A stretch of DNA of 64,000 bases from Ramlibacter albus (GTDB taxonomy: Bacteria > Pseudomonadota > Gammaproteobacteria > Burkholderiales > Burkholderiaceae_C): contig NZ_JACORU010000009.1 of assembly GCF_014297445.1 (NCBI RefSeq), positions 1-64,000 on the forward strand, written 5' to 3'. Positions 5,509 through 62,598 of this stretch are shown here, piece by piece. Made by a program: the position numbers and the translations under genes. Numbering within the stretch: position 1 is the first letter of the stretch; the number at the start of each line of letters is the position of its first letter. The notes below the pieces were generated by a model that did not search any database, had not been told where the DNA came from, and saw only the letters and a list, made by a program, of their open reading frames with translations.

Positions 5509-5524
5509 TCGTCGCAACCGACGA
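5509..5524 (+). promoter_or_regulatory. Regulon operator 1, TCGTC-GCAACC-GACGA
   Basis: The centre is at 5516.5, and the start codon of the acyl-CoA dehydrogenase at 5588 is 71.5 bp downstream. A -10-like GAAGAT starts at 5547, exactly 30.5 bp from the centre. No -35 element is evident, as expected for an activator-dependent promoter. The 16 bp are identical to operator 2 and, on the other strand, to operator 3. Confidence 0.7.
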
Positions 5525-5587
5525 TGCGCCCCTTGCCCCCGCCCGGGAAGATGGGCACCGTACCCCACGAGCCGGAAACGTTTACCC

Positions 5588-6856
5588 ATGGACTTCGACA
5601 TCCCCCGCGAGCTGCAGGACACGATCGCCACGATGGACGCCTTCATCGCGGCCGAGATCAAGCCGCTGGAAGACGCCAACCCGCAGTTCTTCGACCACCG
5701 GCGCGAACGCGCCCGCACCAACTGGGCCGAAGGCGGCATCCCCACGCGGGAGTGGGAAGCGCTGCTGCACGAGATGCGCCGGCGCGCCGACCGCGCGGGC
5801 TTCTACCGCATCGGCCTGCCGAAGCGGCTGGGCGGCAAGGACGCAAGCAACCTCGCCCAGGCCGTGCTGCGCGAACACCTCGCGGCCAAGGGCGTGGGCC
5901 TGCACGCCGACCTGCAAAGCGAAACTTCCGTCGTAGGCAGCATCTCGATGGCCGAGGTGTTCGACCGCTACGCGAACGAGGCGCAGAAGGCCGAGTACCT
6001 CGAAGGCATCATCACCGGGGAAAAACGCGTGGCCTTCGGTTTGACCGAGCCCGACCACGGCAGCGACGCCACGTGGATGGAAACCACCGCCGTGCGCCAG
6101 GGCGACGTCTGGGTGATCAACGGCGCCAAGCGCTTCAACAGCGGCGTGCACACCGCGCACTCCGACCTCGTCATCGCGCGCACCTCCGGCAAGGCCGGCG
6201 ACGCGACCGGCCTCACCGGCTTCATCGTGCCGATGGACACACCGGGCGTGAAGATCGAGTACTACCACTGGACCTTCAACATGCCCAGCGACCACGCGGA
6301 GGTCACGTTCAAGGACGTGCGCGTGCCGCACTCGGCCATCCTCGCCGAAGAGGGCAAGGGCCTGATGCTGGCGCAGCACGTCGTGCACAAGAACCGCATC
6401 CGGCAAGCCGCGCAAAGCGCGGGCGCCGCGCGCTACTGCGTGCAGGAGTCGGTGCAGTACGCCCGCGAGCGCAAGACCTTCGGCAAGCCCATCGCGCAGC
6501 ACCAGGCCATCCAGTTCCCGCTGGCCGAGATGCACGCGGAAGTCGAGATCGTGCGCAACTACGTGTTCAAGACCGCGTGGGAGATGGACCGCACGCCGCA
6601 CGAGAAGATGAGCGACCAGGTCGGCATCGCCAACTTCCGCGCGAACCGCCTCGCCTGCAAGGCCGCGGACCTGGCGATGCAGGTGCACGGCGGCATCGGC
6701 TACACGCGCGGCAAGGCCTTCGAGCACATCTACCGCCACCATCGCCGCTATCGCATCACCGAAGGCTCGGACGAAGTGCAGATCCGCAAGGTGGCGGGTT
6801 TCCTCTTCGGTTTTGCCGGGCCGAACAAGATCAAGAAAACGAAGGAGACTGCATGA
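5588..6856 (+). CDS. Acyl-CoA dehydrogenase family protein
   Basis: This 422-residue flavoprotein should remove alpha,beta hydrogens from a CoA thioester, using FAD and passing electrons to ETF. FGLTEPDHGSDATWMETTA is the central FAD/substrate motif, ARERKTFGKPIAQHQAIQ is the C-terminal domain signature, and the end has GSDEVQIRKVAGFLFG. The long N-terminal segment with FFDHRRERARTNWAEGG marks a bacterial branch not tied to a known substrate. The frame stays open far upstream, but ATG 5588 is chosen because similarity begins there and operator 1 with its -10 lies just before it. The stop overlaps the start of the TctC gene by 4 bases. Confidence 0.85.
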   Translation: MDFDIPRELQDTIATMDAFIAAEIKPLEDANPQFFDHRRERARTNWAEGGIPTREWEALLHEMRRRADRAGFYRIGLPKRLGGKDASNLAQAVLREHLAAKGVGLHADLQSETSVVGSISMAEVFDRYANEAQKAEYLEGIITGEKRVAFGLTEPDHGSDATWMETTAVRQGDVWVINGAKRFNSGVHTAHSDLVIARTSGKAGDATGLTGFIVPMDTPGVKIEYYHWTFNMPSDHAEVTFKDVRVPHSAILAEEGKGLMLAQHVVHKNRIRQAAQSAGAARYCVQESVQYARERKTFGKPIAQHQAIQFPLAEMHAEVEIVRNYVFKTAWEMDRTPHEKMSDQVGIANFRANRLACKAADLAMQVHGGIGYTRGKAFEHIYRHHRRYRITEGSDEVQIRKVAGFLFGFAGPNKIKKTKETA

Positions 6857-7821
6857 TCACTCGCCGCCATCTCACCGCCGCTGTGCTCGCGGCTGCCACC
6901 GCCTTCGGTGCCCACGCCGCCGATGCCTTCCCCATCCCGGGCAAGACCATCACGCTCGTACTGCCCTCGGCCAGCGGCTCCGCCGGCGACCAGGTGCTGC
7001 GCATGCTCGCCGACAAGCTGAAGGACGAGTGGAAGGTGCCGATCATCGTGGACTCCAAGCCGGGCGCAGGTGGCGCGATCGGTTCCGCGCACGTCGCCAA
7101 GTCGGCGCCGGACGGGCACACGATGCTGCTGGGTTTCAGCGCGCTGGTGCAGGCGCCGGCCTTCGGCGTGAAAACGCCTTACGACCCGCTCACGGACTTC
7201 ATCCCGATCGCTCGCTTGAACGACGTGCCGCTGGTGCTGCTCACGGGTGACATGAGCATCACGAGCCTTTCGGACTTCGTGACGAAGGCCAAGGCCAACC
7301 CAGCGCAGTTCAACTTCGGCAGCTATGGCGCGGCCACCACCGGCCACGTGTACTCCAGCCTGATCAACATGAAGCATGGGCTGGACCTCGCGCACGTGCC
7401 GTTCCGCGGCACGCCGCCGCTGACCAACGCGCTGCTTGGCGGCCACGTGAAAAGTGGCGTGAGCAACCTCGACAGCCTGCCGCACGTCAAGGCGGGCAAG
7501 CTGCGCGTGCTGGCGATCACGGGCACGAAGCGTTCGGCCCTGCTGCCCGATGTGCCGACGTTCAGCGAGCTGGGGTACGACATCACCGCGGGTGGGCGCT
7601 ACTGGCTGCTGCTGCCTGCGGGGGTGGCGCCGCAGACCGTGGACAAGGTCCGTGACGCGGTGCTGCGCGTGATCAGGATGCCGGATGTGCGGCAGAAGAT
7701 GCAGGAGATCGGGTTGGAGCCCGCTTCTGGGGAGCGGGAGGATGTCGCGGGGGACATGCGCAAGGAGATTGACTACTGGAAGCGGGTGGTGCAGGTTACT
7801 GGCATCAAGGCTGCGGAGTAG
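6853..7821 (+). CDS. TctC/Bug-family periplasmic solute receptor
   Basis: The 322 residues start with a Sec signal (MITRRHLTAAVLAAATAFGAHA). The Bug-family pattern follows: ITLVLPSASGSAGDQVLR, VDSKPGAGGAIGSAHVAKS-PDG, VPFRGTPPLTNALLGG and PDVPTFSELG. The usual PFPAGGxxD loop is changed to PSASGSAGD, so the ligand contact may differ. Receptors of this type feed carboxylates to TctAB or act as sensors, but no tctA or tctB is in the window. ATGA coupling to the dehydrogenase gene suggests the imported acid is that pathway's substrate. Confidence 0.88.
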   Translation: MITRRHLTAAVLAAATAFGAHAADAFPIPGKTITLVLPSASGSAGDQVLRMLADKLKDEWKVPIIVDSKPGAGGAIGSAHVAKSAPDGHTMLLGFSALVQAPAFGVKTPYDPLTDFIPIARLNDVPLVLLTGDMSITSLSDFVTKAKANPAQFNFGSYGAATTGHVYSSLINMKHGLDLAHVPFRGTPPLTNALLGGHVKSGVSNLDSLPHVKAGKLRVLAITGTKRSALLPDVPTFSELGYDITAGGRYWLLLPAGVAPQTVDKVRDAVLRVIRMPDVRQKMQEIGLEPASGEREDVAGDMRKEIDYWKRVVQVTGIKAAE

Positions 7822-7963
7822 CTCTTTCCTTTGTAGGGCGTCGTCGGGTCGATTGGCGGCCGAAGACATATGCGTGGGCAGGTACTCGACGTGAAGGAAC
7901 GATCCTCACGTTCGCCCGCCACCCGACGTCTCCCGATTCGGCCCTGTCCGTCCAGACGAGCCC

Positions 7964-7981
7964 AAATCGGCTGTCCGATTT
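7964..7981. terminator. Hairpin between convergent genes, probable bidirectional terminator
   Basis: AAATCGG-CTGT-CCGATTT is a perfect 7-bp stem with a 4-base loop. It lies between the converging TctC gene (ends 7821) and metallo-hydrolase gene (ends 8071). The stem ends in A/T runs on both sides, suiting termination from either direction. Confidence 0.55.
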
Positions 7982-7983
7982 AG

Positions 7984-8014
7984 CTCCCTCTCTTTCCCGG
8001 AGGGGAAGGGAGGG
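7984..8014. repeat. GC-rich imperfect hairpin, dispersed-repeat type
   Basis: CTCCCTCTCTTTCCC can fold against GGGAAGGGAGGG around a GGAG loop. Polypyrimidine/polypurine hairpins like this are often dispersed between convergent genes in proteobacteria, and it may add to termination. The rest of the 249-bp gap 7822-8070 shows no gene. Confidence 0.45.
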
Positions 8015-8070
8015 CGGGGGGAGGGATGGGGAGAGCAACGCACATATGAATGGCGAAACCGAGACTACGC

Positions 8071-15967: not shown

Positions 15968-16001
15968 CGGGCCAGTCTAGGAAGCTCGGGCCCGCCGCGA
16001 A

Positions 16002-16017
16002 TCGTCGCAACCGACGA
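16002..16017. promoter_or_regulatory. Regulon operator 2, TCGTC-GCAACC-GACGA, in a divergent promoter
   Basis: The centre (16009.5) is exactly 42.5 bp from both start codons, 15967 on the minus strand and 16052 on the plus strand. A -10-like hexamer starts 30.5 bp away in each direction: TAGACT leftward (15979) and GAGCAT rightward (16040). Both predicted transcripts start at their ATG. One operator thus appears to serve two activator-type promoters. Confidence 0.75.
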
Positions 16018-19178: not shown

Positions 19179-19181
19179 CAG

Positions 19182-19205
19182 GGGTCCGATCTTAGTCGCG
19201 GACCC
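19182..19205. promoter_or_regulatory. Inverted repeat GGGTCCG-N10-CGGACCC between divergent genes
   Basis: Perfect 7-bp arms with a 10-bp spacer lie immediately upstream of the LLM gene start (19178) and 62 bp before the TonB receptor start. The position suits an operator for the divergent pair, although a regulator gene for it is not in sight. It does not match the TCGTC-N6-GACGA sites. Confidence 0.4.
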
Positions 19206-19266
19206 GTCCGGCCTTGGCCCCGGCGGGCGGCACAATCGCGGCACCGAAAAACGACGAGGGGAACCC

Positions 19267-28616: not shown

Positions 28617-28637
28617 ATTTTTCGGAGACAAGAGACC

Positions 28638-31500: not shown

Positions 31501-31535
31501 CCCCGCAAAGCTAAGCGAGGCCGGGCCGCGGCGAA

Positions 31536-31551
31536 TCGTCGGTTGCGACGA
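31536..31551. promoter_or_regulatory. Regulon operator 3, TCGTC-GGTTGC-GACGA, between two divergent ligase operons
   Basis: On the minus strand the 16 bp read TCGTCGCAACCGACGA, identical to operators 1 and 2. The centre (31543.5) is 43.5 bp from ATG 31500 (minus) and 73.5 bp from ATG 31617 (plus). Hexamers TAGCTT (minus, from 31513) and CACCAT (plus, from 31574) each start 30.5 bp away. Confidence 0.75.
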
Positions 31552-34264: not shown

Positions 34265-34277
34265 AAGCGCGGGCCCG

Positions 34278-35948: not shown

Positions 35949-35956
35949 AAGACAAC

Positions 35957-37780: not shown

Positions 37781-40700
37781 TGCGCATGAGCGATACCGAG
37801 CGGCGCGCCCTGCAGTCGCCCTTCCGCAAAGTGCTGGTCGCCAACCGCGGCGAGATCGCAGTGCGCATCGCGCGCGCCGCGGCCGAGCTGGGCATCGCGA
37901 GCGTCGGCATCCACTCGACCAACGACGCCGGTTCGGTGCACTGGCGCCGCTGCGACGAGGCGGTTGCTTTGCCCGGCACGGGCGCGGCGGCCTACCTCGA
38001 CATGGATGCGGTGATCGGCGCCGCGCGCGCAAGCGGCTGCGACGCGGTGCATCCCGGCTACGGCTTCCTCAGCGAGAACGCAGCGTTCGCGCGGCGTTGC
38101 GCCGAGGCGGGCCTCGCCTTCATCGGACCGCGACCCGAGGTGCTGGACCTGCTGGGCGACAAGGCGCAGGCCCGGCGGCTTGCGGCCGAGTGCAACATTC
38201 CCGTGGCCCGCGGTATCTCGCGGGCCGTGACGCTTGACGAGGCTCGCGAGTTCCTCGCGTCGCTGGGCAGCGGCGCGATCATGCTCAAGGCCCTCGCCGG
38301 CGGCGGTGGCCGCGGCATGCGCGTCGTCGAGTCGCCCGACGCACTACCCGAGGCTTTCGCTTCGGCGCAGGCCGAGGCCCGTGCGGCTTTCGGCAACGAC
38401 GCGCTCTATGTCGAAGAACTGGTCACCCAAGCGCGGCACGTGGAAGTGCAGGTGCTCGGTGACACCGCGGGCGAAGTCGCCCACCTGCACGAGCGCGAAT
38501 GCACGCTGCAGCGCCGCCAGCAGAAGCTGGTGGAGTTCGCGCCTTCGCCTTTCCTCGACGCAACCATGCGCGCCGCGCTGGCGGATGCGGCGTGCGTGCT
38601 GGCGCGCGCGGCCGGCGTGCACACGCTGTGCACCATGGAGTTCCTGGTCGCCCCGGACGGCCGCTTCGTCTTCATGGAAGCGAATCCGCGCCTGCAGGTG
38701 GAGCACACCGTCACCGAAGCGGTGACCGGCATCGACCTCGTGCAGGCCCAGTTCCTGCTCGCCGCGGGCCGCACGCTGGAGGTGCTGGGCTTGCAGCAAC
38801 AAGACATCCCCGCGCCGCGCGGGCTGGCCGTGCAGTTGCGCGTCAACATGGAGCGCATCGATGCGCAGGGCCATGCGCTGCCCGCCAGTGGCACGCTGCG
38901 CGCCTTCGACGCACCCGGCGGCGCCGGCGTGCGCATCGACACCTTCGCGCGCGCGGGCTGGACGCCCTCGACCCGCTTCGATTCGCTGCTTGCGAAACTC
39001 GTCGTTCATGTGCCCGGCACGCGCGTCGAAGACCTGCTGCTGCGCGCCGGCCGTGCGCTCGCCGAATTCGAAATCGAAGGCGTGTCGACGAACATCGGTT
39101 TCCTGCAGGCCCTGCTCGCCGACGCGGACGTGGTCGCGGGGCGCGTGGACACGCGCTTCGTCGAGCGCCACGGCGCGCGCCTCGCCGCGGCCGCGCAGGG
39201 CCAGCCTCGCCTGCACGGCGCCGCCCGCGAAGAGCCGGCCACGTCCGGCAACGCCGATGCGCTCGCAGCCGACGATGCCGCCGATGCGGCGGCCGGCGAA
39301 GCCGACGCGTTCGCACCGGAGGGCGTGCAGGTCGTCGCCGCGCCGCTGGGCGGCGTCGTCGCGCGCCTCGCGGTGGCCGCGGGCGACACGGTGCGCGCCG
39401 GCCAGACCCTCGCGGTGGTCGAGGCCATGAAGATGGAACACGCAGTGACCGCGCCCTGCGCCGGGCAGGTGCTGTCGCTCCACGCCGCCCTGGGCGAGGC
39501 CGTGGTCGAGGGCCGCCCGCTGGTGTGGCTCGAGCCCGGCGACGCCGGCGATGCAGCGCACGAAGACGCCGGCATCCAGCACGACCCGGTTGCCGCCCAA
39601 CGCCTGCAGGAGCTGCGCGACCGCAAGGCCGCCCTGCTCGACGCCGCGCGTCCCGACGCCGTCGCCCGCCAGCGCGGGCGCGGCGCGCTCACCGCGCGCG
39701 AGCGCATCGCGCGCCTGTGCGACGCGGGCAGCTTCGTGGAGATGGGCGCGCTGCTGGCACCGGAGAGCGGCGCTGCGGCACCCGCCGACGGCGTCGTGGT
39801 CGGCTCGGCGCGGATCGCGGGCCGCCCGGTCATGGTGGCGGCGCAGGACTTCAGCGTCTTCGGCGGCAGCTCCGGGCTCATGGGCCGCAACAAGATCGCT
39901 CGTGCGCTGCAGCGCGCGCGCATCAACGGCATGCCGATGGTGATGCTGTTCGACGGCGGCGGCCACCGCATCCAGGACGGGCAGAACTCGCGCCACTTCG
40001 CCTCGTCCACCAACATGTTCCAGGAGTTCTCGTACCTGTCCGGCTGGGTGCCGGTGGTCAGCGCCGTGCTCGGCGCCGGCTTCGCGGCCAACACCAACTA
40101 CTGCGCCATGTCCGACTTCGTCGTGATGGTGCGCGGGCAGGCCGAGATGGGCCTGGCCGGCCCGGCCCTCGTGAAGGCCGGCACCGGGGAGACCATCTCC
40201 GGCCAGGACCTCGGCGGCGCGGCGGAACAGGTGGACCGCAACGGCCTGGCCGACCTCGCCGTGGACACCGAGGACGAGGCGTTCGCCGCGGTGCGCGGCT
40301 TCCTGTCGTACCTGCCCTCCAATGCGCGGGCCGCACGCGCGGACGTGCAGGCCGTGCAGGAACCCGCAGGCGACGAGCTGTCGCAACTCGTGCCCGCGAA
40401 CACGCGCGTGGCCTACGACATGCGGCAGGTCGTCGCGCGCATCGCCGACGTCGGCTCGGTCTTCGAGATCAAGCCCACCTACGGCGCCAACATGGTCACC
40501 GCGTTCGCGCGGCTGGACGGGCGGGCCGTTGGCTTCATCGGCAACCAGCCGCTGGTGATGGGCGGCATGATCGACAGCGCCGCGGCCGAGAAGACGGCCC
40601 GCTTCATTGCCTTGTGCGACGCGTACGGGCTGCCGCTGGTCTACCTGGTGGACGTGCCGGGCATGTCCATCGGCTCGCGCGCGGAGCGCACCACGCTCGG

Positions 40701-41121
40701 CCGGCGCAGCGCCAAGATGCTCTTCGAACTCGGCCACGCCACCGTGCCGCGGGCCTCGGTGGTGCTGCGCAAGGGCTATGGCCTCGGCTACGTCGCCATG
40801 TGCGGCGGCCGCGGGTTCGAGCCCGACACCTGCCTGGCCTGGCCGACCGCCGAAATCTGCGCGATGTCGATCGAAGGCTCGGTGGACGTCGCCTACCGCA
40901 AGCAGTTCGCGACCGCGCCGGACCCTGCCGCGAAGCGGCGCGAGATCATCGACGGCATTCGAGCTCGCGTGAGCGCCGTGCAGGCCGCCGAGGGCTTCGG
41001 CATCGACGACGTCATCGAGCCCGGCGAAACCCGTGCGCGGCTGATCGACGTGTTCGCGCAGGCGCCTGCGAGGCGGCAGCCGGCCATGCCGCCGAAATTC
41101 CGCTCGATCCCGCCGATCTGA
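37777..41121 (+). CDS. Single-chain biotin-dependent acyl-CoA carboxylase (BC-BCCP-CT fusion)
   Basis: All three parts are in 1114 residues. A biotin carboxylase covers about 15-470 (KVLVANRGEIAVRIARA, ALAGGGGRGMR, EANPRLQVEHTVTEAVTG), a biotinyl domain has K552 in EAMK552M, and a carboxyltransferase covers about 600-1090 (LTARERIARLCDAG, AAEKTARFIALCDAYGLP, VVLRKGYGLGYVAM). Most bacteria split these into two or three subunits. The CT-alpha-like region follows the long-chain or geranyl/propionyl type, so the substrate is not clear. The protein should carboxylate an acyl- or enoyl-CoA formed by the dehydrogenases. It is ATGA-coupled to the AtuA gene. Confidence 0.88.
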   Translation: MMRMSDTERRALQSPFRKVLVANRGEIAVRIARAAAELGIASVGIHSTNDAGSVHWRRCDEAVALPGTGAAAYLDMDAVIGAARASGCDAVHPGYGFLSENAAFARRCAEAGLAFIGPRPEVLDLLGDKAQARRLAAECNIPVARGISRAVTLDEAREFLASLGSGAIMLKALAGGGGRGMRVVESPDALPEAFASAQAEARAAFGNDALYVEELVTQARHVEVQVLGDTAGEVAHLHERECTLQRRQQKLVEFAPSPFLDATMRAALADAACVLARAAGVHTLCTMEFLVAPDGRFVFMEANPRLQVEHTVTEAVTGIDLVQAQFLLAAGRTLEVLGLQQQDIPAPRGLAVQLRVNMERIDAQGHALPASGTLRAFDAPGGAGVRIDTFARAGWTPSTRFDSLLAKLVVHVPGTRVEDLLLRAGRALAEFEIEGVSTNIGFLQALLADADVVAGRVDTRFVERHGARLAAAAQGQPRLHGAAREEPATSGNADALAADDAADAAAGEADAFAPEGVQVVAAPLGGVVARLAVAAGDTVRAGQTLAVVEAMKMEHAVTAPCAGQVLSLHAALGEAVVEGRPLVWLEPGDAGDAAHEDAGIQHDPVAAQRLQELRDRKAALLDAARPDAVARQRGRGALTARERIARLCDAGSFVEMGALLAPESGAAAPADGVVVGSARIAGRPVMVAAQDFSVFGGSSGLMGRNKIARALQRARINGMPMVMLFDGGGHRIQDGQNSRHFASSTNMFQEFSYLSGWVPVVSAVLGAGFAANTNYCAMSDFVVMVRGQAEMGLAGPALVKAGTGETISGQDLGGAAEQVDRNGLADLAVDTEDEAFAAVRGFLSYLPSNARAARADVQAVQEPAGDELSQLVPANTRVAYDMRQVVARIADVGSVFEIKPTYGANMVTAFARLDGRAVGFIGNQPLVMGGMIDSAAAEKTARFIALCDAYGLPLVYLVDVPGMSIGSRAERTTLGRRSAKMLFELGHATVPRASVVLRKGYGLGYVAMCGGRGFEPDTCLAWPTAEICAMSIEGSVDVAYRKQFATAPDPAAKRREIIDGIRARVSAVQAAEGFGIDDVIEPGETRARLIDVFAQAPARRQPAMPPKFRSIPPI

Positions 41122-41129
41122 AGACCACC

Positions 41130-41849
41130 ATGAAGAACGATGCACTTCCCGCGCTCAAGGCGCTCGATGCGCCCGATGCGCTCGACCCTTCCGGCTTCGA
41201 GCGCCTGCTCGCAACTCGCGCGAGCTGCCGCGGCTTCCTGCCCACACCGCTGCCGCGCCCGCTGATCGAGCGCATCCTGGCCGCGACGCAGCGCACTGCG
41301 TCGTGGAACAACACGCAGCCGTGGCAGGTGATCGTCACCGACGCGCCGGCCACCGAGTCGCTGCGGCAGGCGCTGCAGTCGCAGCAGCCGGAACCCGCGG
41401 GGTTCGAGATTCCCCCGCCCGCGGAGTACCGCGGTGTCTACCTCGAGCGCCGGCGCGCCTGCGGCTGGGGCCTTTATGCGGCAGTGGGCGTCGCCAAGGG
41501 CGACCGCGAAGCCTCGCAGCGGCAGGCGAACGAGAATTTCCGCATGTTCGGCGCCCCGCACCTGGCGCTGCTCACGAGCGACAAGGCGTTGGGCACCTAC
41601 GGCGTGCTCGACTGCGGCGGCTGGGTCAACAACTTCCTGCTCGCGGCGGCGTCGCACGGCGTCGCCACGATCGCGCAGGCCGCGCTCGCGCAGCGCTCGG
41701 CGTTCCTGCGGCGCTGGTTCGGCATCCCCGAGGACCGGACGATCGTCTGCGGCATTTCGTTCGGCTACGCCGACACCGCGCATCCCGCGAATTCTTTCCG
41801 CACACCGCGAGCGCCGCTCGCCGAAGTCGTGCGCTGGGTCGATCAATGA
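41130..41849 (+). CDS. Nitroreductase-family protein
   Basis: The 239-residue protein has LLATRASCRGFLPTPLPRPLIERIL and AATQRTASWNNTQPWQVIV near the start, the nitroreductase FMN site. DCGGWVNNFLLAAASHGVATIAQAA follows. In a pathway context it could act as an enoate- or quinone-type reductase. It is 8 bp after the carboxylase gene and overlaps the CoA-transferase start at 41846 by 4 bases, so it belongs to the same operon. It is about 15 residues longer than the copy at 21441. Confidence 0.87.
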   Translation: MKNDALPALKALDAPDALDPSGFERLLATRASCRGFLPTPLPRPLIERILAATQRTASWNNTQPWQVIVTDAPATESLRQALQSQQPEPAGFEIPPPAEYRGVYLERRRACGWGLYAAVGVAKGDREASQRQANENFRMFGAPHLALLTSDKALGTYGVLDCGGWVNNFLLAAASHGVATIAQAALAQRSAFLRRWFGIPEDRTIVCGISFGYADTAHPANSFRTPRAPLAEVVRWVDQ

Positions 41850-43051
41850 GCGACAAGGAAACGCCGCTGCGCGGGCTGCGCATCGCCGACTTCTCGCACT
41901 TCATCGCGGGCCCGTTCGCCACGATGATCCTGGCCGACATGGGCGCGGAGGTGATCAAGATCGAAAGCGCGGGCACGGGCGACAACTTCCGCCACTACCC
42001 GCCCCACATCGGCGGCGAGAGCGTTCCGTACCTCTGGGTCAACCGCAACAAGAAGAGCGTGGCGCTGGACCTGAAGACGCCCGAGGGGCGCGCCGTGGCG
42101 CTGGACATCGTGGCGAAGTCCGACGTGGTGGTGGAGAACTTCTCCACCGGCGTGATGGAGCGGCTGGGGCTGGACTGGGCCACGCTCTCGCACGACAACC
42201 CGCGCCTGATCTACGCGTCGGTGTCGTCCTATGGGCGGCGCGGCCCGTATGCCAATCGCATCGGCTTCGACCCCGTGGTGCAGGCGGAGAGCGGGTTCAT
42301 CTCGATGAATGGCGACCCGGCGCAGGAGCCCGGGTATCGTGCGGGCCCTTCGGTCATGGACATCGCGACGGCGATGATGACCGCGAATGCCATCCAGGGC
42401 GCGTGGATCGCGCGCCTGCGCACCGGGCGCGGGCAGCTCGTCGAGACGACGATGATCGAGACGGCCATCAACATGCTGGGCAATTTCTCGCTGTCGTACC
42501 TGGCCACCGGGGTGAGCCCCACGCGCTTCGGCAACACGCAGGCCACGGCTTCGCCGGTGGGTGCGTTCGAAACCGCGACCGGCCCGATCTATCTTGCTTG
42601 CGCCAACGACCGCACGTTCCAGCGCCTTGCGCGAGACGTGCTGCTGGATCCCGCGCTTGCCGACGATCCCGCGTACGCGACAAGCGCCGGCCGCCGCGAG
42701 AACCAGCAGCGGCTTCTCTCCGACATCCGCGCGCGGCTGAAGCAGCAGGACCGTGACACCTCGCTTGCGCGAATGCACGAGGCCGGTGTTCCGTGCGGCG
42801 CGATCCGCACAGTGGGCGAGGCGATGGACGCGCCGGAGATCAAGGAACTGGGGTTGGTGAGCAGCATTGCGCATCCGACGCTGGGGACGATTCCGAACGT
42901 GGGGTTGCCGATGCACTTTTCCGAGACGCCGCTGGCCGAGCCGGTGGCGGCGCCGCTGCTGGGGGCCGACACGGATGCCGTCCTGCGGGACGTGCTGGGT
43001 TACGCGCCCGAGCGCATCTCGGGGCTGCGGGAAGAAGGCGTGTTCGGCTGA
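41846..43051 (+). CDS. CaiB/BaiF-family CoA-transferase
   Basis: This 401-residue type III CoA-transferase has [25 protein letters not shown] at the start and VNRNKKSVALDLKTPEG. VMDIATAMMTANAIQGA carries the catalytic Asp that forms an acyl-CoA anhydride-type intermediate. The 15-residue spacing and tail fit formyl- or carnitine-CoA-type transferases rather than the racemase branch. It is the seventh gene of the operon from 31617 and ends by overlapping the convergent enoyl-CoA hydratase gene by 52 bp. Confidence 0.9.
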   Translation: MSDKETPLRGLRIADFSHFIAGPFATMILADMGAEVIKIESAGTGDNFRHYPPHIGGESVPYLWVNRNKKSVALDLKTPEGRAVALDIVAKSDVVVENFSTGVMERLGLDWATLSHDNPRLIYASVSSYGRRGPYANRIGFDPVVQAESGFISMNGDPAQEPGYRAGPSVMDIATAMMTANAIQGAWIARLRTGRGQLVETTMIETAINMLGNFSLSYLATGVSPTRFGNTQATASPVGAFETATGPIYLACANDRTFQRLARDVLLDPALADDPAYATSAGRRENQQRLLSDIRARLKQQDRDTSLARMHEAGVPCGAIRTVGEAMDAPEIKELGLVSSIAHPTLGTIPNVGLPMHFSETPLAEPVAAPLLGADTDAVLRDVLGYAPERISGLREEGVFG

Positions 43052-45511: not shown

Positions 45512-45527
45512 TCGTCCGAACGGACGA
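45512..45527 (-). promoter_or_regulatory. Regulon operator 4, TCGTCCG-AA-CGGACGA (perfect 7-2-7 palindrome)
   Basis: It lies between the stop of the racemase-like gene (45530) and the start of the amidohydrolase gene. The centre is at 45519.5; the minus-strand hexamer GATCAT starts at 45489, 30.5 bp away, and gives a leader of about 20 bases that includes AAGGAG. This and operator 8 are the most symmetrical copies. Confidence 0.72.
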
Positions 45528-45529: not shown

Positions 45530-46603
45530 TTACCGGCGCCAGGCGCGCAGGAAGTCCTCGTCCGCTTCGCGGCTGGCCTGCGGCTGCCCCGCCGGCGTGC
45601 GGGAGAAACGCGGTGCCGGGGCGGGCTGGACCACGCCGTCCACGGTGACGAAACCACCGCGAGCCCGATGCTGCGGATGCGCAGGCGCCTCGTCCCAGTC
45701 GAGCACGGGCGTGAGGCAGGCGTCGCGCCCCTCGGCGAGGGCGCACCACTCGTCCCGGCTGCGCTGCAGGAAGACCTGCGCCAACTGCGCCTTGAAGGCG
45801 GGCCAGCGCGCGCGGTCCCATTGCGCCGTGCGCATCTCGCCCTCAATGGCGCACAAGTCCATCAATTGCGCGTAGAACTGCGGCTCGTTCGCGGCCACGG
45901 CGACGTACCGGCCGTCCGCGCAGCGATAGGCGTTGTAGAAGTGCGCGCCACCGTCGAGGTGGTTCTCTCCGCGCCCGCCGCTCCAGCGGCCGCTCGCCCG
46001 CATGCCGTAGAAGAGCGACGCGAGCAGCGTCGAGCCTTCGCTCATCGCGGCGTCGACCACCTGCCCGCGGCCGGACACGTTGCGTTCCTGCAGCGCGGCA
46101 AGCAGGCCCACGGCGAGCAGCATCGCCCCGCCGCCGTAGTCGCCCACCAGGTTCAGCGGGGGCACCGGCGGCTCGCCCGGGCGCCCGATGGCGTGCAGCG
46201 CGCCGCTCAGGCCGAGATAGTTGATGTCATGGCCCGCCACCTGGGCCAGCGGCCCGTCCTGCCCCCATCCCGTCATGCGGCCGTACACGAGGCGCGGGTT
46301 GCGCTGCATGCACTCGCTCGGGCCCAGCCCGAGGCGCTCCATCACGCCGGGGCGGAAACCCTCGATCAGGATGTCGGCGCTGCCGGCGAGTTCCAGCGCG
46401 GTGGCCCGGCCCTCGTCCGAACGAAGGTCGAGCGCGATGCGGTGCCGCCCGCGCCCGGGCACGTCGAAGCGGCTCGCTTCGGCGCCGATGCGCGTGACCT
46501 GCAGCACCTGCGCGCCCAGGTCGGCCAGCAGCATCGCGCAAAAAGGCGCGGGGCCGATGCCACCGGCCTCCAGCACGCGGATTCCCGCCAACGGTCCATT
46601 CAT
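45530..46603 (-). CDS. Alpha-methylacyl-CoA racemase-like protein (CaiB/BaiF family)
   Basis: The 357 residues contain [35 protein letters not shown]125DINYLGLSG and NLVGD155YGGGA. H125 and D155 match the proton-shuttle pair of mycobacterial racemase (His126/Asp156), and the protein lacks the transferase Asp motif. Racemases convert 2R to 2S methylacyl-CoA so that dehydrogenases can act. The ATG at 46603 is preferred over a GTG at 46612; a TATAGT -10 from operator 5 puts +1 one base before it. It has the same EEC tail pattern [10 protein letters not shown] as two paralogues at 59162 and 61424. Confidence 0.85.
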   Translation of the reverse strand: MNGPLAGIRVLEAGGIGPAPFCAMLLADLGAQVLQVTRIGAEASRFDVPGRGRHRIALDLRSDEGRATALELAGSADILIEGFRPGVMERLGLGPSECMQRNPRLVYGRMTGWGQDGPLAQVAGHDINYLGLSGALHAIGRPGEPPVPPLNLVGDYGGGAMLLAVGLLAALQERNVSGRGQVVDAAMSEGSTLLASLFYGMRASGRWSGGRGENHLDGGAHFYNAYRCADGRYVAVAANEPQFYAQLMDLCAIEGEMRTAQWDRARWPAFKAQLAQVFLQRSRDEWCALAEGRDACLTPVLDWDEAPAHPQHRARGGFVTVDGVVQPAPAPRFSRTPAGQPQASREADEDFLRAWRR

Positions 46604-46638
46604 CCGCGCCACTATAGGGGGCGCGCTGAGTGTCTCAA

Positions 46639-46654
46639 CCGTCCGAATCGACGA
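46639..46654. promoter_or_regulatory. Regulon operator 5, CCGTC-CGAATC-GACGA, at the regulator's own promoter
   Basis: The centre (46646.5) is 43.5 bp from the racemase-like start (46603, minus strand) with TATAGT starting 30.5 bp away at 46616. On the plus strand no hexamer fits at 30.5 bp. Instead TAGAAT at 46661-46666 is the likely -10 of the regulator gene, so the operator overlaps that promoter's -35 region. This suggests activation leftward and autorepression rightward. Confidence 0.68.
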
Positions 46655-46692
46655 TATCCCTAGAATGGGTTCGCGCAGAGCCAGCGCATTGC

Positions 46693-49416
46693 ATGACTTC
46701 TACCGCAGTCCCTCCCACCCGCACGCCGCTGCTGCGCAGCCGCGTGATGGCGCAGTCGAGCAAGTTCAACCTGCCCGGCACCAACGCCGCATTGGTGCGC
46801 CGCGCGGCGATCGCCGAACGCGTCGAGCGCGCCGCCGCCGCCAAGCTCATCCTCGTGCGCGCCCCGGCCGGCTTCGGCAAGACGACCGCGCTGCGCCAGA
46901 TCCACGAGCAGCTGAGCGCGGCCGGCGTCGCCACGGCGTGGATCACCGTCGACGCCGCCGACAACGACGTGCCGCGTTTCCTCAGCTGCCTGGCCGAGGC
47001 GGTGGCCCGCTTGCAGATCGAGGACGCGGCCGCCACCAGCGCCGACGCCGAAGCCGTGGCCCTGCTCGAGCGTGAAGGCCCGCCCTTCGCCCTCTTCCTC
47101 GACGAATTCGAAACCCTGCAGTCGGCCGCCGTGATCGGCCTCGTGCGCGAAGTGATCGAGCGGCTGCCGCGCAACGGGCGCGTGGTGATCGGTTCGCGCA
47201 GCCTGCCCGACGTGGGCCTGGGCCGCCTGCGCGTGCGTGGGCAGCTCGTGGAGATCGGCGCCGACGTGCTGCGCTTCAGCGCCGCGGAGACCGCCGAATT
47301 CCTGCGCCTGCGCGGCCTGCCCGCGTTGCCGCCCGACACGCTGGAGCTGCTGCACGCGCGCACCGAAGGCTGGATCGCGGCGCTGCTGCTCGTGTCGATG
47401 GCATTGGGCAGCCATGAAGCGGCCGCGGACTTCATCCAGCGCCTGTCGGGTTCCGGCGGGGCCATCGCGGAGTACCTGGCCGAGGACGTGCTGGGCCGCC
47501 AGCCGCCCGAAGTGCGCGAGTTCCTGCAGCGCACGAGCATCCTGCGGCAGCTCAATGCGCCGCTGTGCCAGGCGCTCGTGCCGCGCACCGACTGCGCCGC
47601 GATGCTCGAGCGGCTGCATGCGTCGAGCCTGTTCCTGCTGCCGCTCGAGACCGAAAGCGCCGAGCCCAACTATCGCTACCACGCCCTCTTCGCCAATTTC
47701 CTGCGCACGCAGCTCGCGCGCGAGCACCCGGAAGACCTGCTGCGGCTGCACTTGTCGGCCTGCGCGTGGTACGAGTCGGTCGGCCGCCCCGTGCCGGCCA
47801 TCGACCATGCGATCGAAGGCGGCGACTACCCCCATGCGCTGTCGCTGCTGGAGCAGCATGGCCAGCGCTTCGTCGAGCAGGGGCGCATGCGCCTGCTTGC
47901 ACGCTGGTTCGCGGCGATCCCGCCCGAGCAGTTGAAGCAGCATCCGCGCATGCAGGCGCTGTACGTGTGGGCCGTGCTCTTCACCCAGGGCGCGTCCGAG
48001 GGCATGGCGCTGCTGGCCGCGAGCGGCATCGAATCGAGCGAGGACCCGACGATCCGCGCCCACGTCAACGCGCTGCAGCCGCTGCTGCTGGCGATGCTGG
48101 ACCGCTACGACGAAGCCAACCCCATCGGCCGCGCGGGCCTTGCGCGCCTTCCCACCGCCGTGCCCTTTGCCGACACGGTGCTGATCAACTGCATGGCGCA
48201 CGTCACTTCCGTGCTCGGCGAGAAGCGCGAAGCGCAGCGCCTGCTCGACGCCGCGCGGCAGACGCAGAGCAGCAGCGTGTTCAACCGCATGTACACCGAG
48301 TCGACCGAGGGCTTGCTGGACATCGAGCGAGGCCGCTTCCGGCAGGCGACCGCGCGCTTTCGCATCGCGGTCGATGCCACGACGCGCGAGGCCGACTACA
48401 GCCACACCGGTGGCAACGCGTGGGCCGGCGTGCTCTATGCAGCCGCGATGTACGAGGCCAACGAACTGGAAGCATGCGACCGCTTGCTCAACGTCTACCT
48501 GCCGCTCGCGCGCGAGGTGGGCCTGCCCGACCACATGATCAGCAGCTATGCGATGCGCTCGCGGCTGCTGTTCTGGCGCGGTGACGTCGACGGCGCGCTG
48601 CGCACGCTCACCGAGCTGGAGACGCTGGGCAACCTTCGCAAGCTGCCGCGCGTCGTGGCGACGGCGAAACTCGAACGCGCCCGCATGCTGATGCGCCAGG
48701 GCAATGCCTATGGCGCGAAGGAAGAGCTCGACCGCGCGGACGACAAGGCCGTCTGGGAGCGCGTGGCGCGCCAGCGCCTGCCCGCGCACGACGTGCTGGA
48801 CATCGGCATCGCGCGCCTGCGCTGGGAGATCCTGTTCGGCGACGCCGCCGAGGCGTTGCGCCGCATCGACGCGGACCTGCCCGCCATCGACGCCGAAGCC
48901 CGCGTGCGCCGCAGCCGCAAGCTGCGCGTGCTCAAGTCGATGGCTTTGTGGAAGCTCAAGCAGGTCGACGCGTCAGCCGACGTGATGCGCGACATCCTGC
49001 TCGAAGGCAGCCGCGAGGGTTTCCTGCGCCTCATCGCCGACGACGGCGTGCACGTCGCCGGGCCGATCCAGGCGGTGCTGGCGCCGCTGAAGGCCGCGCC
49101 CGAGAAGTCCGACCCGATCCTGCTCGAATACGTCCAGCGCGTGCTGGAGGCGCTCGGCCCCGATGCGCTCGCCGCCGAACCCGCGCAAGCGGCCGCGGCC
49201 ACCGACGTGCCGTGGCAGGTGGAGCCGCTCACGCAGAAGGAGATGCAGGTGCTGAAGCTGCTGGCGGAGGGTTACTCCAACAGTGCGATGTCCGAGAAGC
49301 TTTTCGTTTCCGACAGCACGGTGCGCACGCACCTGCGCAACATCAACATGAAGCTGGGCGCGCAGAACCGGACGCAGGCGGTGTCGCTGGCGAGGCGCTA
49401 CGGGTTGATCCGTTAG
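46693..49416 (+). CDS. MalT/LAL-type LuxR-family transcriptional activator, proposed regulon master
   Basis: The 907-residue protein has an N-terminal STAND-type ATPase: Walker A APAGFGKTT near residue 58, Walker B ALFLDEFE and an arginine-rich sensor segment. A long helical repeat region (tetratricopeptide-like) runs to about 830. It ends with a LuxR HTH: LTQKEMQVLKLLAEGYSNSAMSEKLFVSDSTVRTHLRNINMKLGAQNRTQ. Such proteins are ATP- and ligand-dependent activators, as MalT and AlkS. ATG 46693 is chosen over GTG 46630 because the operator and -10 lie between the two. It shares its promoter region with a racemase-like gene carrying the regulon site, which points to this protein as the regulator of the YCGTC-N6-GACGA sites (inference). 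Confidence 0.88.
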   Translation: MTSTAVPPTRTPLLRSRVMAQSSKFNLPGTNAALVRRAAIAERVERAAAAKLILVRAPAGFGKTTALRQIHEQLSAAGVATAWITVDAADNDVPRFLSCLAEAVARLQIEDAAATSADAEAVALLEREGPPFALFLDEFETLQSAAVIGLVREVIERLPRNGRVVIGSRSLPDVGLGRLRVRGQLVEIGADVLRFSAAETAEFLRLRGLPALPPDTLELLHARTEGWIAALLLVSMALGSHEAAADFIQRLSGSGGAIAEYLAEDVLGRQPPEVREFLQRTSILRQLNAPLCQALVPRTDCAAMLERLHASSLFLLPLETESAEPNYRYHALFANFLRTQLAREHPEDLLRLHLSACAWYESVGRPVPAIDHAIEGGDYPHALSLLEQHGQRFVEQGRMRLLARWFAAIPPEQLKQHPRMQALYVWAVLFTQGASEGMALLAASGIESSEDPTIRAHVNALQPLLLAMLDRYDEANPIGRAGLARLPTAVPFADTVLINCMAHVTSVLGEKREAQRLLDAARQTQSSSVFNRMYTESTEGLLDIERGRFRQATARFRIAVDATTREADYSHTGGNAWAGVLYAAAMYEANELEACDRLLNVYLPLAREVGLPDHMISSYAMRSRLLFWRGDVDGALRTLTELETLGNLRKLPRVVATAKLERARMLMRQGNAYGAKEELDRADDKAVWERVARQRLPAHDVLDIGIARLRWEILFGDAAEALRRIDADLPAIDAEARVRRSRKLRVLKSMALWKLKQVDASADVMRDILLEGSREGFLRLIADDGVHVAGPIQAVLAPLKAAPEKSDPILLEYVQRVLEALGPDALAAEPAQAAAATDVPWQVEPLTQKEMQVLKLLAEGYSNSAMSEKLFVSDSTVRTHLRNINMKLGAQNRTQAVSLARRYGLIR

Positions 49417-50457: not shown

Positions 50458-51639
50458 CTACAACCGCTCAACGATCGTCACATTGGCCATCCCGCCACCT
50501 TCGCACATCGTCTGCAGCCCGTAGCGGCCGCCACGCTGTTGCAGCGCATACAGCAGCGTCGTCATCAGCTTCGTGCCGGACGCACCGAGCGGATGGCCCA
50601 GGGCAATCGCACCGCCATTCACGTTCAGGCGCTCGGCGTCCGCACCCAGCGCCTGCAGCCACGCCAGCGGCACCGGCGCGAAGGCTTCGTTCACTTCGTA
50701 CAGGTCGATGTCGGCGATGTTCATGCCGGCCTTCTCCAGCGCGCGCTGCGTCGCGGGGATCGGTGCTTCGAGCATGATCACCGGGTCGTGCCCGATCACG
50801 CTCATGTGATGGATGCGCGCGAGCGGCTTCACGCCCAGGCGCTTGAGGCCGCGCTCGCTGACCACCATCACGCCGCTCGCGCCGTCGCAGATCTGGCTGG
50901 CGCTGGCGGCGCTGATGCGGCCGCCTTCCTGCAGCAGCTTGACGCCGGCGATGCCTTCGAAGCTCGCATCGGCGCGGATGCCTTCGTCGCGCTTGTGCAC
51001 TTCACCGGTCTCGGCACCGTTCGAATCGCGCACACGCAGCGGCACGATCTCCGCGTCGAAGCGGCCTTCGCTCGCGGCGCGGGCAGCGAGCTGGTGGCTG
51101 CGCAGCGCGTAGCGGTCCAGCGTTTCCTTTTTCAGGCCGTACTTCGTCGCGATCATCTCCGCGCCGACGAACTGGCTGAAGTCGCGGTCGCCATACCGCT
51201 TGCGGATCTCCGGGCTCATGTAGAAGCCCATGCCGTTCTTCTGCGGCAGCGCCGACGGCGTGAACATCGGCACGCGCGTCATGCTCTCCACGCCGGCCGC
51301 GATGACGACGTCCTGCGTGCCCGACATCACGGCCTGCGCCGCGAAGTGCAGCGCCTGCTGCGACGAGCCGCACTGGCGGTCCAGCGAAGTGCCGGGCACC
51401 GACTCGGGCAGGCGCGAGGCCAGCACCGCGTTGCGCGCGACGTTGGTGGACTGCTCGCCCACCTGGCTGACGCAGCCCATGATCACGTCCTCGACCAGCG
51501 CGGGGTCGCAATCGGCGCGCTCGACCAGTGCGTTGAGCACTTGCGCTGCGAGTTCCACCGGGTGCCAGCCGGAAAGCTTGCCGCCGCGGCGGCCCCCGGC
51601 CGTGCGCGCGGCGGCGACGATGTAGGCTTCTTGTGCCAT
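50458..51639 (-). CDS. Acetyl-CoA C-acyltransferase (thiolase)
   Basis: The 393-residue thiolase has all catalytic residues: C90 in DRQC90GSSQQA, H349 in GGAIALGH349PLGASG and C379 in C379EGGGMAN. It breaks 3-oxoacyl-CoA to acetyl-CoA and a shorter acyl-CoA, or joins acetyl-CoA units. AAGGAAGGA lies upstream of ATG 51639. It follows the SDR gene by 22 bp on the same strand, so the dehydrogenase product is passed to thiolysis, completing a beta-oxidation round. Confidence 0.92.
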   Translation of the reverse strand: MAQEAYIVAAARTAGGRRGGKLSGWHPVELAAQVLNALVERADCDPALVEDVIMGCVSQVGEQSTNVARNAVLASRLPESVPGTSLDRQCGSSQQALHFAAQAVMSGTQDVVIAAGVESMTRVPMFTPSALPQKNGMGFYMSPEIRKRYGDRDFSQFVGAEMIATKYGLKKETLDRYALRSHQLAARAASEGRFDAEIVPLRVRDSNGAETGEVHKRDEGIRADASFEGIAGVKLLQEGGRISAASASQICDGASGVMVVSERGLKRLGVKPLARIHHMSVIGHDPVIMLEAPIPATQRALEKAGMNIADIDLYEVNEAFAPVPLAWLQALGADAERLNVNGGAIALGHPLGASGTKLMTTLLYALQQRGGRYGLQTMCEGGGMANVTIVERL

Positions 51640-51661
51640 GTGAGTCCTTCCTTGTGTTGGG

Positions 51662-52444
51662 TTAACGCGGCGCCATGCGGATCGCGCCGTCGAGGCGCAC
51701 GCATTCACCGTTGAAGTAGCTGTTGGTGATCATCGTCTCGGCGAGGTGCGCGTATTCGTCCGGGTTGCCCAAGCGCTTGGGGAAAGGCACCGATTCGCCC
51801 AGGGACTTGAGCACGTTGTCGGGCAGCGCCATCAGCAGCGGCGTCGCGAAGATGCCGGGCAGGATGGTGTTGACGCGGATGCCTTCGCCCATCAGGTCGC
51901 GCGCGACCGGCAGCGTCAGGCCCACGATGCCCGCCTTGGAAGCCGAGTACGCTGCCTGGCCCATCTGGCCATCCTCGGCCGCGACGGAAGCGGTGTTGAC
52001 GATCGCGCCACGCTCGCCGTCCTTCAGCGGGTCCAGCGTCAGCATGCCGGCGGCCGAATGCGCGATGCAGCGGAACGTACCGATGAGGTTGATCTGGATG
52101 ATCTTCTCGAAGTCGGGCAGCGGGAAGTGCTTGGGCTGGCCGGTTGCCTTGTCGCGGCTGGCCGTCTTGATGCCGTTGCCGGTGCCGGCGCAGTTGACGA
52201 GGATGCGCTCCTGCCCGTGCGCGGCGCGCGCCTTCTCGAAGCCGGCCTTCACCTGCTCTTCGCTGGTGACGTCCACCTTGCAGAAGGTGCCGTTGAGCTC
52301 GCGTGCCATGGCCTCGCCGGCTTCCGCGTTGAAGTCGAAGATGGCGACGCGCACGCCTTGGGAGGCGAGGCGGCGGGCGGTGGCGGCGCCGAGGCCGGAA
52401 GCGCCGCCGGTGACGACCGCGGCAATCGAGGAATCGAGTTTCAT
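51662..52444 (-). CDS. SDR, 3-hydroxyacyl-CoA dehydrogenase type 2-like
   Basis: The 260-residue short-chain dehydrogenase has TGGASGLG (12-19) for NAD binding and the S153, Y166, K170 triad (AYSASKAG). VNCAGTGNGIKTASRDK and ILPGIFATPLL match HSD17B10-like 3-hydroxyacyl-CoA dehydrogenases, which act on branched 2-methyl-3-hydroxyacyl-CoAs. It is divergent from the TctC-carboxylase operon across operators 6 and 7. The CACAGT -10 gives a +1 one base before ATG 52444 and no ribosome binding site precedes it. Confidence 0.9.
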   Translation of the reverse strand: MKLDSSIAAVVTGGASGLGAATARRLASQGVRVAIFDFNAEAGEAMARELNGTFCKVDVTSEEQVKAGFEKARAAHGQERILVNCAGTGNGIKTASRDKATGQPKHFPLPDFEKIIQINLIGTFRCIAHSAAGMLTLDPLKDGERGAIVNTASVAAEDGQMGQAAYSASKAGIVGLTLPVARDLMGEGIRVNTILPGIFATPLLMALPDNVLKSLGESVPFPKRLGNPDEYAHLAETMITNSYFNGECVRLDGAIRMAPR

Positions 52445-52479: not shown

Positions 52480-52495
52480 CCGTCCAAACCGACGA
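52480..52495 (-). promoter_or_regulatory. Regulon operator 6, CCGTC-CAAACC-GACGA
   Basis: The centre is 52487.5, 43.5 bp from the SDR start. The minus-strand hexamer CACAGT starts at 52457, again 30.5 bp away; it is the weakest -10 of the set. First base is C instead of T, as in operator 5. Confidence 0.68.
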
Positions 52496-52526: not shown

Positions 52527-52542
52527 TCGTCGTAACCGACGA
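52527..52542 (+). promoter_or_regulatory. Regulon operator 7, TCGTC-GTAACC-GACGA
   Basis: The centre is 52534.5, 61.5 bp from the TctC start. The plus-strand hexamer GAACAT starts at 52565, 30.5 bp away. Operators 6 and 7 are 47 bp apart, one facing each divergent gene, unlike the single shared operators 2, 3 and 5. Confidence 0.72.
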
Positions 52543-59152: not shown

Positions 59153-59161
59153 GACGAGCTT

Positions 59162-60250: not shown

Positions 60251-60270
60251 GGCGTTGCCTCCTTCGCGAT

Positions 60271-61419: not shown

Positions 61420-61423
61420 CGCG

Positions 61424-62524
61424 TCAGGCCTCGGCACGCGCCGTTTCGGCCGCGCCCCACGCGCGCAGGGCGTCCGCTGCCGCTTGCGGCGCGGCAGGCT
61501 CCGGCTGGGCGTTCGGCGTGCGCGAGAAGCGCGGCGCGGGCGCCGGCTGCACAACGCCCTGCACCGTGACGAAGGTGCCGCGTGCCTGGTTGTGCACGTG
61601 CTGCGGCGCCTCCTCGAAATCCAGCACCGGCGCGAAGCACGCGTCGGTGCCCTCCAGCAGCGCGCACCACTCCTCGCGCGTGCGGGTGCGGAACACATCC
61701 GCCAGCCGCAGCTTCATCATCGGCCAGCGCGAGCGGTCCATCTGGCCTTGGGTGAATTCCGCTTCCAGGCCGCACAGCTCGCACAGCTGCGCGAAGAACT
61801 TGGGCTCGATCGCGCCGATGGCGACGAACTTGCCGTCCGCGCAGGCATAGGTGTCGTAGAAGTGCGCCGCGCCGTCGAGCAGGTTGTCGGCGCGCTGCGC
61901 GGTCCAGCGGCCCGCGGCCTTCATGCCGTAGAACACCGACGACAGCAGCGCGGCGCCATCCGTCATCGCCGCATCGACCACCTGCCCCTGGCCCGAGCGG
62001 CGCGCCTCGTGCAGCGCGGCCAGCAGGCCCACGGCGAGCAGCATCGCGCCGCCGCCGTAGTCGCCCACGTAGTTCAGCGGCGGAGGCGGCGCGTCGCCGG
62101 CGCGGCCGATCGCATGCAGCGCACCCGTGACGGCGATGTAGTTGATGTCGTGGCCGGCCGCGGCGGAGAGCGGCCCCGTCTGGCCCCAGCCCGTCATGCG
62201 GCCGTAGACCAGCTTCGGGTTGAGCTTCATGCAGGCCGTGGGGCCCAGGCCCAGCCGCTCCATCACGCCGGGGCGGTAGCCCTCGATCAGGACGTCCGCC
62301 TTCACGATCAGGCCGAGCGCGGCTTCCACGCCTGGCGCCGTCTGCAGGTCGAGCGCGACGTGGCGCTTGCCGCGAGCGGTGACGTCGGTGGCGGCATGCG
62401 TGGTGCCGGGGCGTGCGATGCACACGACGTCCGCGCCGAGATCCGCCAGCACCATCCCGCAGAACGGCCCCGGGCCCATGCCCGCCATCTCCACCACGCG
62501 CAATCCATCCAATGGGCCGGGCAT
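61424..62524 (-). CDS. Alpha-methylacyl-CoA racemase-like protein, third paralogue
   Basis: The 366 residues have [21 protein letters not shown]125 in AAAGH125DINYIAVTG and D155 in VGD155YGGGA. AGGGAGA lies 6 bases before ATG 62524. The mRNA should begin near 62548 from TAGCAT, driven by operator 8, giving a short leader. It is the first gene of the racemase-dehydrogenase-racemase operon. The N-terminal 155 residues are closest to those of the copy at 59162, and the two may be recent duplicates. Confidence 0.87.
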
Positions 62525-62582
62525 GTCGATCTCCCTGTGAGTTTGGTTGTCCAGATGCTAGGGGGCGGGCCCGCGCGGTGAA

Positions 62583-62598
62583 TCGTCCGTTCGGACGA
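62583..62598 (-). promoter_or_regulatory. Regulon operator 8, TCGTCCG-TT-CGGACGA (perfect 7-2-7 palindrome)
   Basis: The centre is 62590.5 and the racemase-like start is 66.5 bp downstream on the minus strand. TAGCAT starts at 62560, exactly 30.5 bp from the centre. It lies between the stop of the crotonase gene (62605) and the racemase-like gene, so it splits these genes into separate units. Confidence 0.75.

Follow-up and report, generated by a model that had tools for sequence, protein, structure and literature searches.

The window analysed here comprises the first 64,000 nucleotides (positions 1-64000) of the 232-kb contig NZ_JACORU010000009.1 of Ramlibacter albus, whose genome measures 6.15 Mb, and it carries a cluster of acyl-CoA catabolism genes in which a 16-bp palindrome recurs between genes, together with the gene of a LAL/MalT-type LuxR protein, the proposed regulator. 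Between 5 and 88 kb of the contig, Pfam matches identify acyl-CoA dehydrogenases, racemase- and CaiB-type CoA transferases, enoyl-CoA hydratases, short-chain dehydrogenases/reductases (SDRs), a thiolase, FadB, acyl-CoA ligases, two AtuA proteins, a thiamine pyrophosphate (TPP) enzyme, amidohydrolases, eight TctC receptors and two fused biotin carboxylase-carboxyltransferases. Palindromic sites were found by pattern matching at 5509, 16002, 31536, 45512, 46639, 52480, 52527 and 62583, which bears out the positions and the 6-bp spacing of the arms given in the original prediction, made from the letters of this DNA. As had also been claimed, none of the eight falls inside a called gene, six of them show the TCGTC/GACGA arms without a change, two (46639 and 52480) begin with C, and those at 45512 and 62583 are perfect 7-2-7 palindromes. 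The predicted distance of 42-74 bp from site to gene did not hold, the span to the start codons, as chosen by us, being about 27-105 bp. The sites and the candidate regulator are given below, each site with the hexamer located 22 bp past it (+22).

5509..5524, plus strand: proposed operator of an acyl-CoA dehydrogenase (5588, plus) and a TctC gene (6853, plus); exact motif; GAAGAT at +22
16002..16017, no single strand: proposed operator common to the unit starting at 15967 on the minus strand (acyl-CoA dehydrogenase, NMT1/ABC transporter, APH, acyl-CoA dehydrogenase, MBL) and AtuA (16052, plus); exact motif; candidate minus-side -10 TAGACT at 15974-15979, plus-side GAGCAT
31536..31551, no single strand: proposed operator common to divergent acyl-CoA ligases (31431/31500, minus, and 31617, plus); exact motif; candidate minus-side -10 TAGCTT at 31508-31513, plus-side CACCAT
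45512..45527, minus strand: proposed operator of the amidohydrolase/enoyl-CoA hydratase unit (45485, minus); perfect 7-2-7 palindrome; GATCAT at +22
46639..46654, no single strand: proposed operator between the methylacyl-CoA racemase (46576, minus) and the LAL regulator (46747, plus); motif with C at position 1; candidate racemase -10 TATAGT at 46611-46616, regulator side without a -10 at +22
46747..49416, plus strand: LAL/MalT-type LuxR transcriptional activator, 889 aa, proposed regulator (from Pfam, the MalT structure match, the P-loop and co-occurrence with the motif)
52480..52495, minus strand: proposed operator of an SDR (52444, minus) and a thiolase (50458, minus); motif with C at position 1; CACAGT at +22
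52527..52542, plus strand: proposed operator of TctC (52596, plus), a fused carboxylase (53585, plus), CaiB (56859, plus) and TctC (58140, plus); exact motif; GAACAT at +22
62583..62598, minus strand: proposed operator of a racemase-type CaiB (62497, minus), an acyl-CoA dehydrogenase (60271, minus) and CaiB (59162, minus); perfect 7-2-7 palindrome; candidate -10 TAGCAT at 62555-62560

The motif can be written in a tight form, TCGTCSNAAYSGACGA (that is, TCGTC-S-N-AA-Y-S-GACGA), which with one mismatch allowed retrieves exactly the eight window sites, compared with a mean of 0.12 in 100 dinucleotide shuffles, so that the claim of an abundance far above chance is upheld. The loose form YCGTCN6GACGA matches at ten places in the window, namely the eight sites and two places in coding sequence (514 and 45636), and its 17 exact strand-wise matches stand against a mean of 0.51 in 100 such shuffles. 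Across the whole genome the loose form proved too noisy and was rejected as a probe (351 strand-wise matches versus 190 for its reversed control). The tight form also becomes noisy with up to two mismatches (407 strand-wise matches versus 220 for the reversed control) but is specific at zero or one: the genome contains nine exact copies, of which six lie in the window and three further along (72123, 78667 and 85130), all of them within 80 kb (5509-85145) of this one contig, and the 20 one-mismatch matches on other contigs all lie inside called coding genes, with no TAnnnT 20-25 bp away on either side of any of them. Exact copies are thus found only in the cluster, and the motif is not as frequent in unrelated coding sequence. 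When one-mismatch and matrix matches are included, the cluster totals 14 sites, the eight of the window being joined by 66413 (which overlaps the 3' end of the preceding gene), 71584, 72123, 78641, 78667 and 85130.

The spacing between palindrome and hexamer is strikingly fixed. Within this genome's 14 sites, 18 gene-facing sides were assigned by hand: in the pairs 52480/52527 and 78641/78667 each site was matched with the gene closer to it, and 5509 was not counted on the minus strand, where it faces a 91-aa frame. On 17 of these 18 sides a hexamer xAnnnT begins exactly 22 bp past the palindrome, and at no other offset from 0 to 49 does it occur on more than two. The fuller form TAnnnT is present at +22 in 9 of the 14 sites. 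In stretches from other genomes, xAnnnT lies at +22 or +23 on 123 of 176 sides, and over all 198 sides TAnnnT is found 65 times at these two offsets and at most three times at every other. The 41 sides with TAnnnT at a gap of 22 yield the consensus TCGTCG-S-WW-S-CGACGA-T-N17-TTCC-TAGnnT. If the hexamer is a -10 element, the palindrome is centred at -42.5 (or -43.5), the position of a class II activator, and the geometry as a whole appears to fit a class II activator site, with its centre at about -41.5/-42.5 and its -10 at a fixed distance.

The only assigned side that lacks the hexamer is the one facing the regulator gene at 46639. Positive autoregulation of the LAL gene was rejected, the regulator side being devoid of the hexamer here and the TAG-type -10 beside LAL genes facing mostly the divergent gene. 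On that same side, 6 bp from the site, lies TAGAAT (46661-46666); if this were the -10 of the LAL gene, the operator would cover its -35 and spacer and could mediate autorepression, an idea weakened by TAnnnT occurring at offset 6 only once in all 198 sides.

The 46747-49416 protein has a C-terminal GerE domain (PF00196, residues 827-882, E 4.4e-18), a Pfam TPR_MalT match at 439-771 and AAA_16 and nSTAND matches below cut-off, and it aligns over residues 16-402 with the PDB structure of MalT, 8bob (E 1.9e-37). A P-loop, APAGFGKTT, lies around residue 44; the strict form GxxxxGK[ST] is absent from this protein, and a GK[TS] P-loop is present, with small changes, in all 30 LAL proteins of the fetched loci. 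Near residue 117, LFLDEFE fits a Walker B motif as read by eye. Pfam detects neither an autoinducer-binding nor a receiver domain. Judged by these matches the protein is a LAL protein, yet not MalT, because its score with the NCBIfam MalT model (324.5 bits) is well under the cut-off of 537.

The association of this protein with the motif was examined in 299 genomes of the family, an orthologue being defined by an E value of at most 1e-100. Orthologues are present in 29 of them and in none of the three other genomes of the same genus. The LAL protein of Xenophilus azovorans DSM 13620 is 87% identical to the one here. In an unbiased test on the same 299 genomes, 22 of the 29 with LAL have the composite of motif and -10, as do 11 of the 270 without (p = 2e-19). 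A matrix built on this genome's own sites was scanned over 33 stretches, which mostly reach 20 kb on each side and correspond to the surroundings of LAL in 27 LAL genomes besides this one (the 28th, G119, carries its LAL gene at a contig end and is not included), this cluster, and parts of two genomes whose LAL is 87% identical. It gives 142 intergenic matches versus 9 for the reversed matrix and, in the 30 stretches with usable gene calls, 135 versus 1, the stretches G191a, G191b and G101 being left out of the site counts since gene calling failed there. Fourteen of the 135 come from this genome, the source of the matrix, and seven from G001a; G001a and the extent of G002 were picked by motif matches and not by LAL alone. 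A weak match at 21445 (score 11.3, at a gene edge) belongs to the 135 and not to the 14 cluster sites, while 66413, owing to its overlap, is counted among the 14 and not among the 135. The conservation in front of related genes in related genomes that the original prediction had put forward as a check was therefore found.

The LAL gene is preceded by a site, at most 300 bp away, in 18 of 27 loci, and LAL is the sole regulator among the families present in at least six stretches. Outside the family but in the same order, homologues are accompanied by the motif, no more than 1.5 kb away, in three of five loci at 48-54% identity and in none of four at 29-37%. Nearly all close homologues have TVRTHLR in the region of the recognition helix, where three distant ones have TVK(S/W)HL (G564a and G340, in the wrong frame, were excluded from this comparison). 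Both patterns, in what is a small sample, fit binding of the site by LAL.

From the computed sites, their fixed spacing, their confinement to the cluster, their conservation and their co-occurrence with the regulator, we infer that the palindrome is very probably the binding site of the LAL activator encoded at 46747-49416, which would activate the promoters of the cluster from a class II position. The LAL protein, together with ATP and a pathway inducer (probably an acid or a CoA thioester), would bind as a symmetric dimer centred at -42.5, contacting the DNA through its C-terminal GerE helix-turn-helix domain and RNA polymerase at a (T)AnnnT -10 exactly 22 bp downstream, with the palindrome standing in for the -35 box. 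One palindrome could serve two divergent promoters, and the 14 sites would in this way drive about 17 transcription units of one 80-kb acyl-CoA catabolism cluster. The catabolic regulon of the original prediction, whose regulator was left unnamed, is thereby supported, with the evidence now pointing to 46747-49416; the finding was right in substance and is now on stronger ground than was claimed for it.

Several observations weigh against this interpretation. Five sides that were not assigned to a gene lack the hexamer, and when all sides within 300 bp of a called gene are counted, plus 66413, xAnnnT at +22 falls to 17 of 23, the six misses being at 46639 (towards the regulator), at 5509 (on the minus side) and within the two site pairs (all four inward-facing sides). 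Across the family, the reversed control composite is found in 41 genomes and the real one in 33, a raw count at chance level; six of those 41 carry LAL (p = 0.26), and it is the composite's link to LAL, not the total genome count, that is informative. The strict composite is missing from 7 of the 29 LAL genomes, each of which has 2-6 matrix matches in called intergenic DNA around LAL (the gene calls of G101 being poor), and 11 genomes have the composite without a close LAL, three of them with distant homologues (28-35%) and eight with none; some of these matches are probably due to chance. Nine of the 27 LAL genes have no upstream site, and two of the five out-of-family homologues at 48-54% identity have no adjacent motif. 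Lastly, PMC6099782 describes the sites of MalT as decanucleotides in direct repeat, which sets them apart from the 16-bp palindrome seen here at -42.5.

TetR-, GntR- or IclR-like repressors typically act at short palindromes in front of acyl-CoA genes, and the palindrome here might accordingly be an operator from which such a repressor is released by an acyl-CoA inducer, as with FadR, PsrA, FadP and LiuR. We regard this as improbable, given that the site is clear of the -10 and that the 22-bp gap, for which a repressor has no need, is kept at 17 of the 18 assigned sides. No TetR, GntR or IclR match was found among the 50 called genes of the window (63414 in part), seven frames in two gaps and most called genes of 64-88 kb, and besides LAL no regulator family is conserved in the loci among families in at least six stretches; a cognate repressor gene could lie outside the part scanned. 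The repressor reading does draw support from FadP, PsrA, LiuR and LiuQ, whose regulons in proteobacteria serve the breakdown of fatty acids and branched-chain compounds and contain similar kinds of enzyme. According to PMC5343134, FadP and LiuQ belong to TetR and LiuR to MerR, whereas the regulator here is a LAL protein; the words LuxR and MalT do not appear in the main text of that paper.

Even less credit is due to binding by another regulator of the cluster, either the alpha/beta-hydrolase-LuxR fusion at 24701-25756, whose DNA-binding domain is likewise of the GerE type, or the LysR protein encoded at 25867-26814. The fusion is present in 32 of the 299 genomes and in 7 of the 33 with the motif, and was rejected as the regulator for want of a clear link (p = 0.065); LysR sites are usually T-N11-A, and neither gene is preceded by a motif site. 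A side observation on the fusion protein (351 aa) is that it has a 66%-identical paralogue on another contig. An origin of the motif in GC-rich codon periodicity (TCGTC, GACGA) or in a dispersed repeat can practically be dismissed, and chance or compositional origin was rejected on the shuffles, the cluster confinement and the cross-genome conservation. However often the loose pattern and the two-mismatch form occur in the genome, the tight pattern keeps to intergenic DNA of one cluster and is conserved across genera with fixed promoter spacing.

Under the LAL activator, several promoters would also give rise to leaderless mRNAs, an unusual feature for a betaproteobacterium. In this genome and the two closest LAL relatives, an ATG lies 6-8 nt after TAnnnT on 11 of 20 sides (binomial p = 4e-11 against the local ATG rate), as opposed to 0 of 45 in the other LAL genomes. 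The 11 cases represent seven gene families, several of them in two or three genomes. In this genome such an ATG follows five of eight TAnnnT promoters, or five of nine if 66413, which has none, is counted; the sites concerned are 16002, 31536 and 46639 in the window and 72123 and 85130 further along the contig, and this arrangement suggests leaderless mRNAs from these five promoters. In three of the 11 cases (29875 and 45530 here, and in G001 an enoyl-CoA hydratase gene) the ATG precedes the called start in the same reading frame, and for these a leader-bearing mRNA translated from the later start is possible. The fuller picture, in which a single LAL activator governs about 17 promoters of rigid design (palindrome at -42.5, 22-bp gap, no -35), coupled in this lineage to leaderless translation and with its own gene spared from activation, is one we favour by a small measure.

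Among known systems, the lux box of LuxR/NarL-type class II promoters is centred at -42.5, and the present sites share that palindrome centre and the fixed -10 distance, with a different half-site. MalT, which controls the maltose regulon of E. coli, and this LAL protein are alike in their N-terminal P-loop, TPR-like region and C-terminal GerE domain; they differ in that the score here is far below the MalT cut-off and the targets are acyl-CoA genes. AlkS is likewise a catabolic LAL activator. So, according to PMC6099782, is TpdR of Rhodococcus jostii TMP1, a pathway-specific LAL activator of catabolic genes; the promoter described for it, a single one, contains 15-nt repeats as well as 7-nt inverted repeats, as against 14 sites that would serve about 17 units here. 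The system thus has the appearance of a LAL-type activator regulon with class II sites. The original prediction had called the regulon undescribed, and no such motif, regulon or regulator appears among the open-access literature matches listed, which were obtained with topic words rather than the motif. To our knowledge, LAL regulators are common, but the site or regulon is known for few of them, and this holds especially outside Streptomyces and enteric bacteria. Here the sequence by itself ties a regulator to a putative site, a promoter geometry and about 55 predicted target genes, giving entry to a large uncharacterised acyl-CoA pathway with AtuA proteins, fused carboxylases, racemases and TctC receptors.

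Co-directional runs, taken as operons, give about 32 target genes for the window sites and about 24 for those beyond. The earlier estimate of about 30 genes in at least ten units agrees with what the window contains, about 32 genes in ten units and, besides these, the regulator gene. It falls short of the cluster, which extends as far as about 88 kb and gains six sites and about 24 genes beyond the window. Three sets of predicted targets are given below.

31617..43051, plus strand: among the largest predicted target operons, with ligase, TctC, TPP enzyme, AtuA, fused biotin carboxylase-carboxyltransferase, nitroreductase and CaiB (gene calls and Pfam; extent inferred from gene spacing)
45530..46576, minus strand: predicted target, alpha-methylacyl-CoA racemase homologue (PDB 1x74, a mycobacterial enzyme, E 1e-113)
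50458..52444, minus strand: predicted targets, SDR and thiolase, which belong to the core that the regulon keeps in other genomes (Pfam and cross-genome comparison)

The fused carboxylase at 37777 matches long-chain acyl-CoA carboxylase (E 2e-200). Elsewhere, the genes behind sites encode LAL, racemase, acyl-CoA dehydrogenase, thiolase, SDR, enoyl-CoA hydratase, acyl-CoA ligase, FadB, nitronate monooxygenase and others, and the gene divergent from LAL is most often an SDR (8 of 30 loci, 75-82% identity). Genes unmatched in this cluster are faced by 39 of the 176 sides in other stretches; the largest such group, with 14 genes in 13 stretches, encodes a Liv-type periplasmic binding protein, and the groups scanned (10 of 16) also give a Liv-type permease, an acyl-CoA thioesterase, two histidine kinases and others. 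The histidine kinase genes preceded by a motif site lie in two other genomes (L135:5907-7409 and L142:4779-6209).

AtuA, the fused carboxylases and most TctC genes are found mainly in this genome and its closest relatives, where they appear to be additions to the regulon. The conserved targets, namely racemase, acyl-CoA dehydrogenase, SDR, thiolase, enoyl-CoA hydratase and FadB, point to methyl-branched acyl-CoA catabolism, which suggests as substrates methyl-branched, perhaps isoprenoid-like, acids degraded by beta-oxidation. The exact substrate could not be named from family matches: NCBIfam has no name for either AtuA protein, and among the families shown only PRK06154 (TPP enzyme) scored above cut-off.

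A few further features of the cluster can be recorded. The eight TctC genes are spread across 6853-83220 of the contig, with no TctA/TctB membrane subunit among the scanned proteins. Two adjacent DUF1028 genes (27915-29348) follow a TctC gene and are not preceded by a motif site, and a luciferase-like monooxygenase frame, outside the gene calls, occupies 17865-19847 on the minus strand. Upstream of the 5509 site lies a second, unrelated perfect palindrome, ATTGTGTACACAAT (5465-5478), facing a small open reading frame (5144-5419) with no Pfam match, and we take this palindrome to resemble a GntR-type operator.

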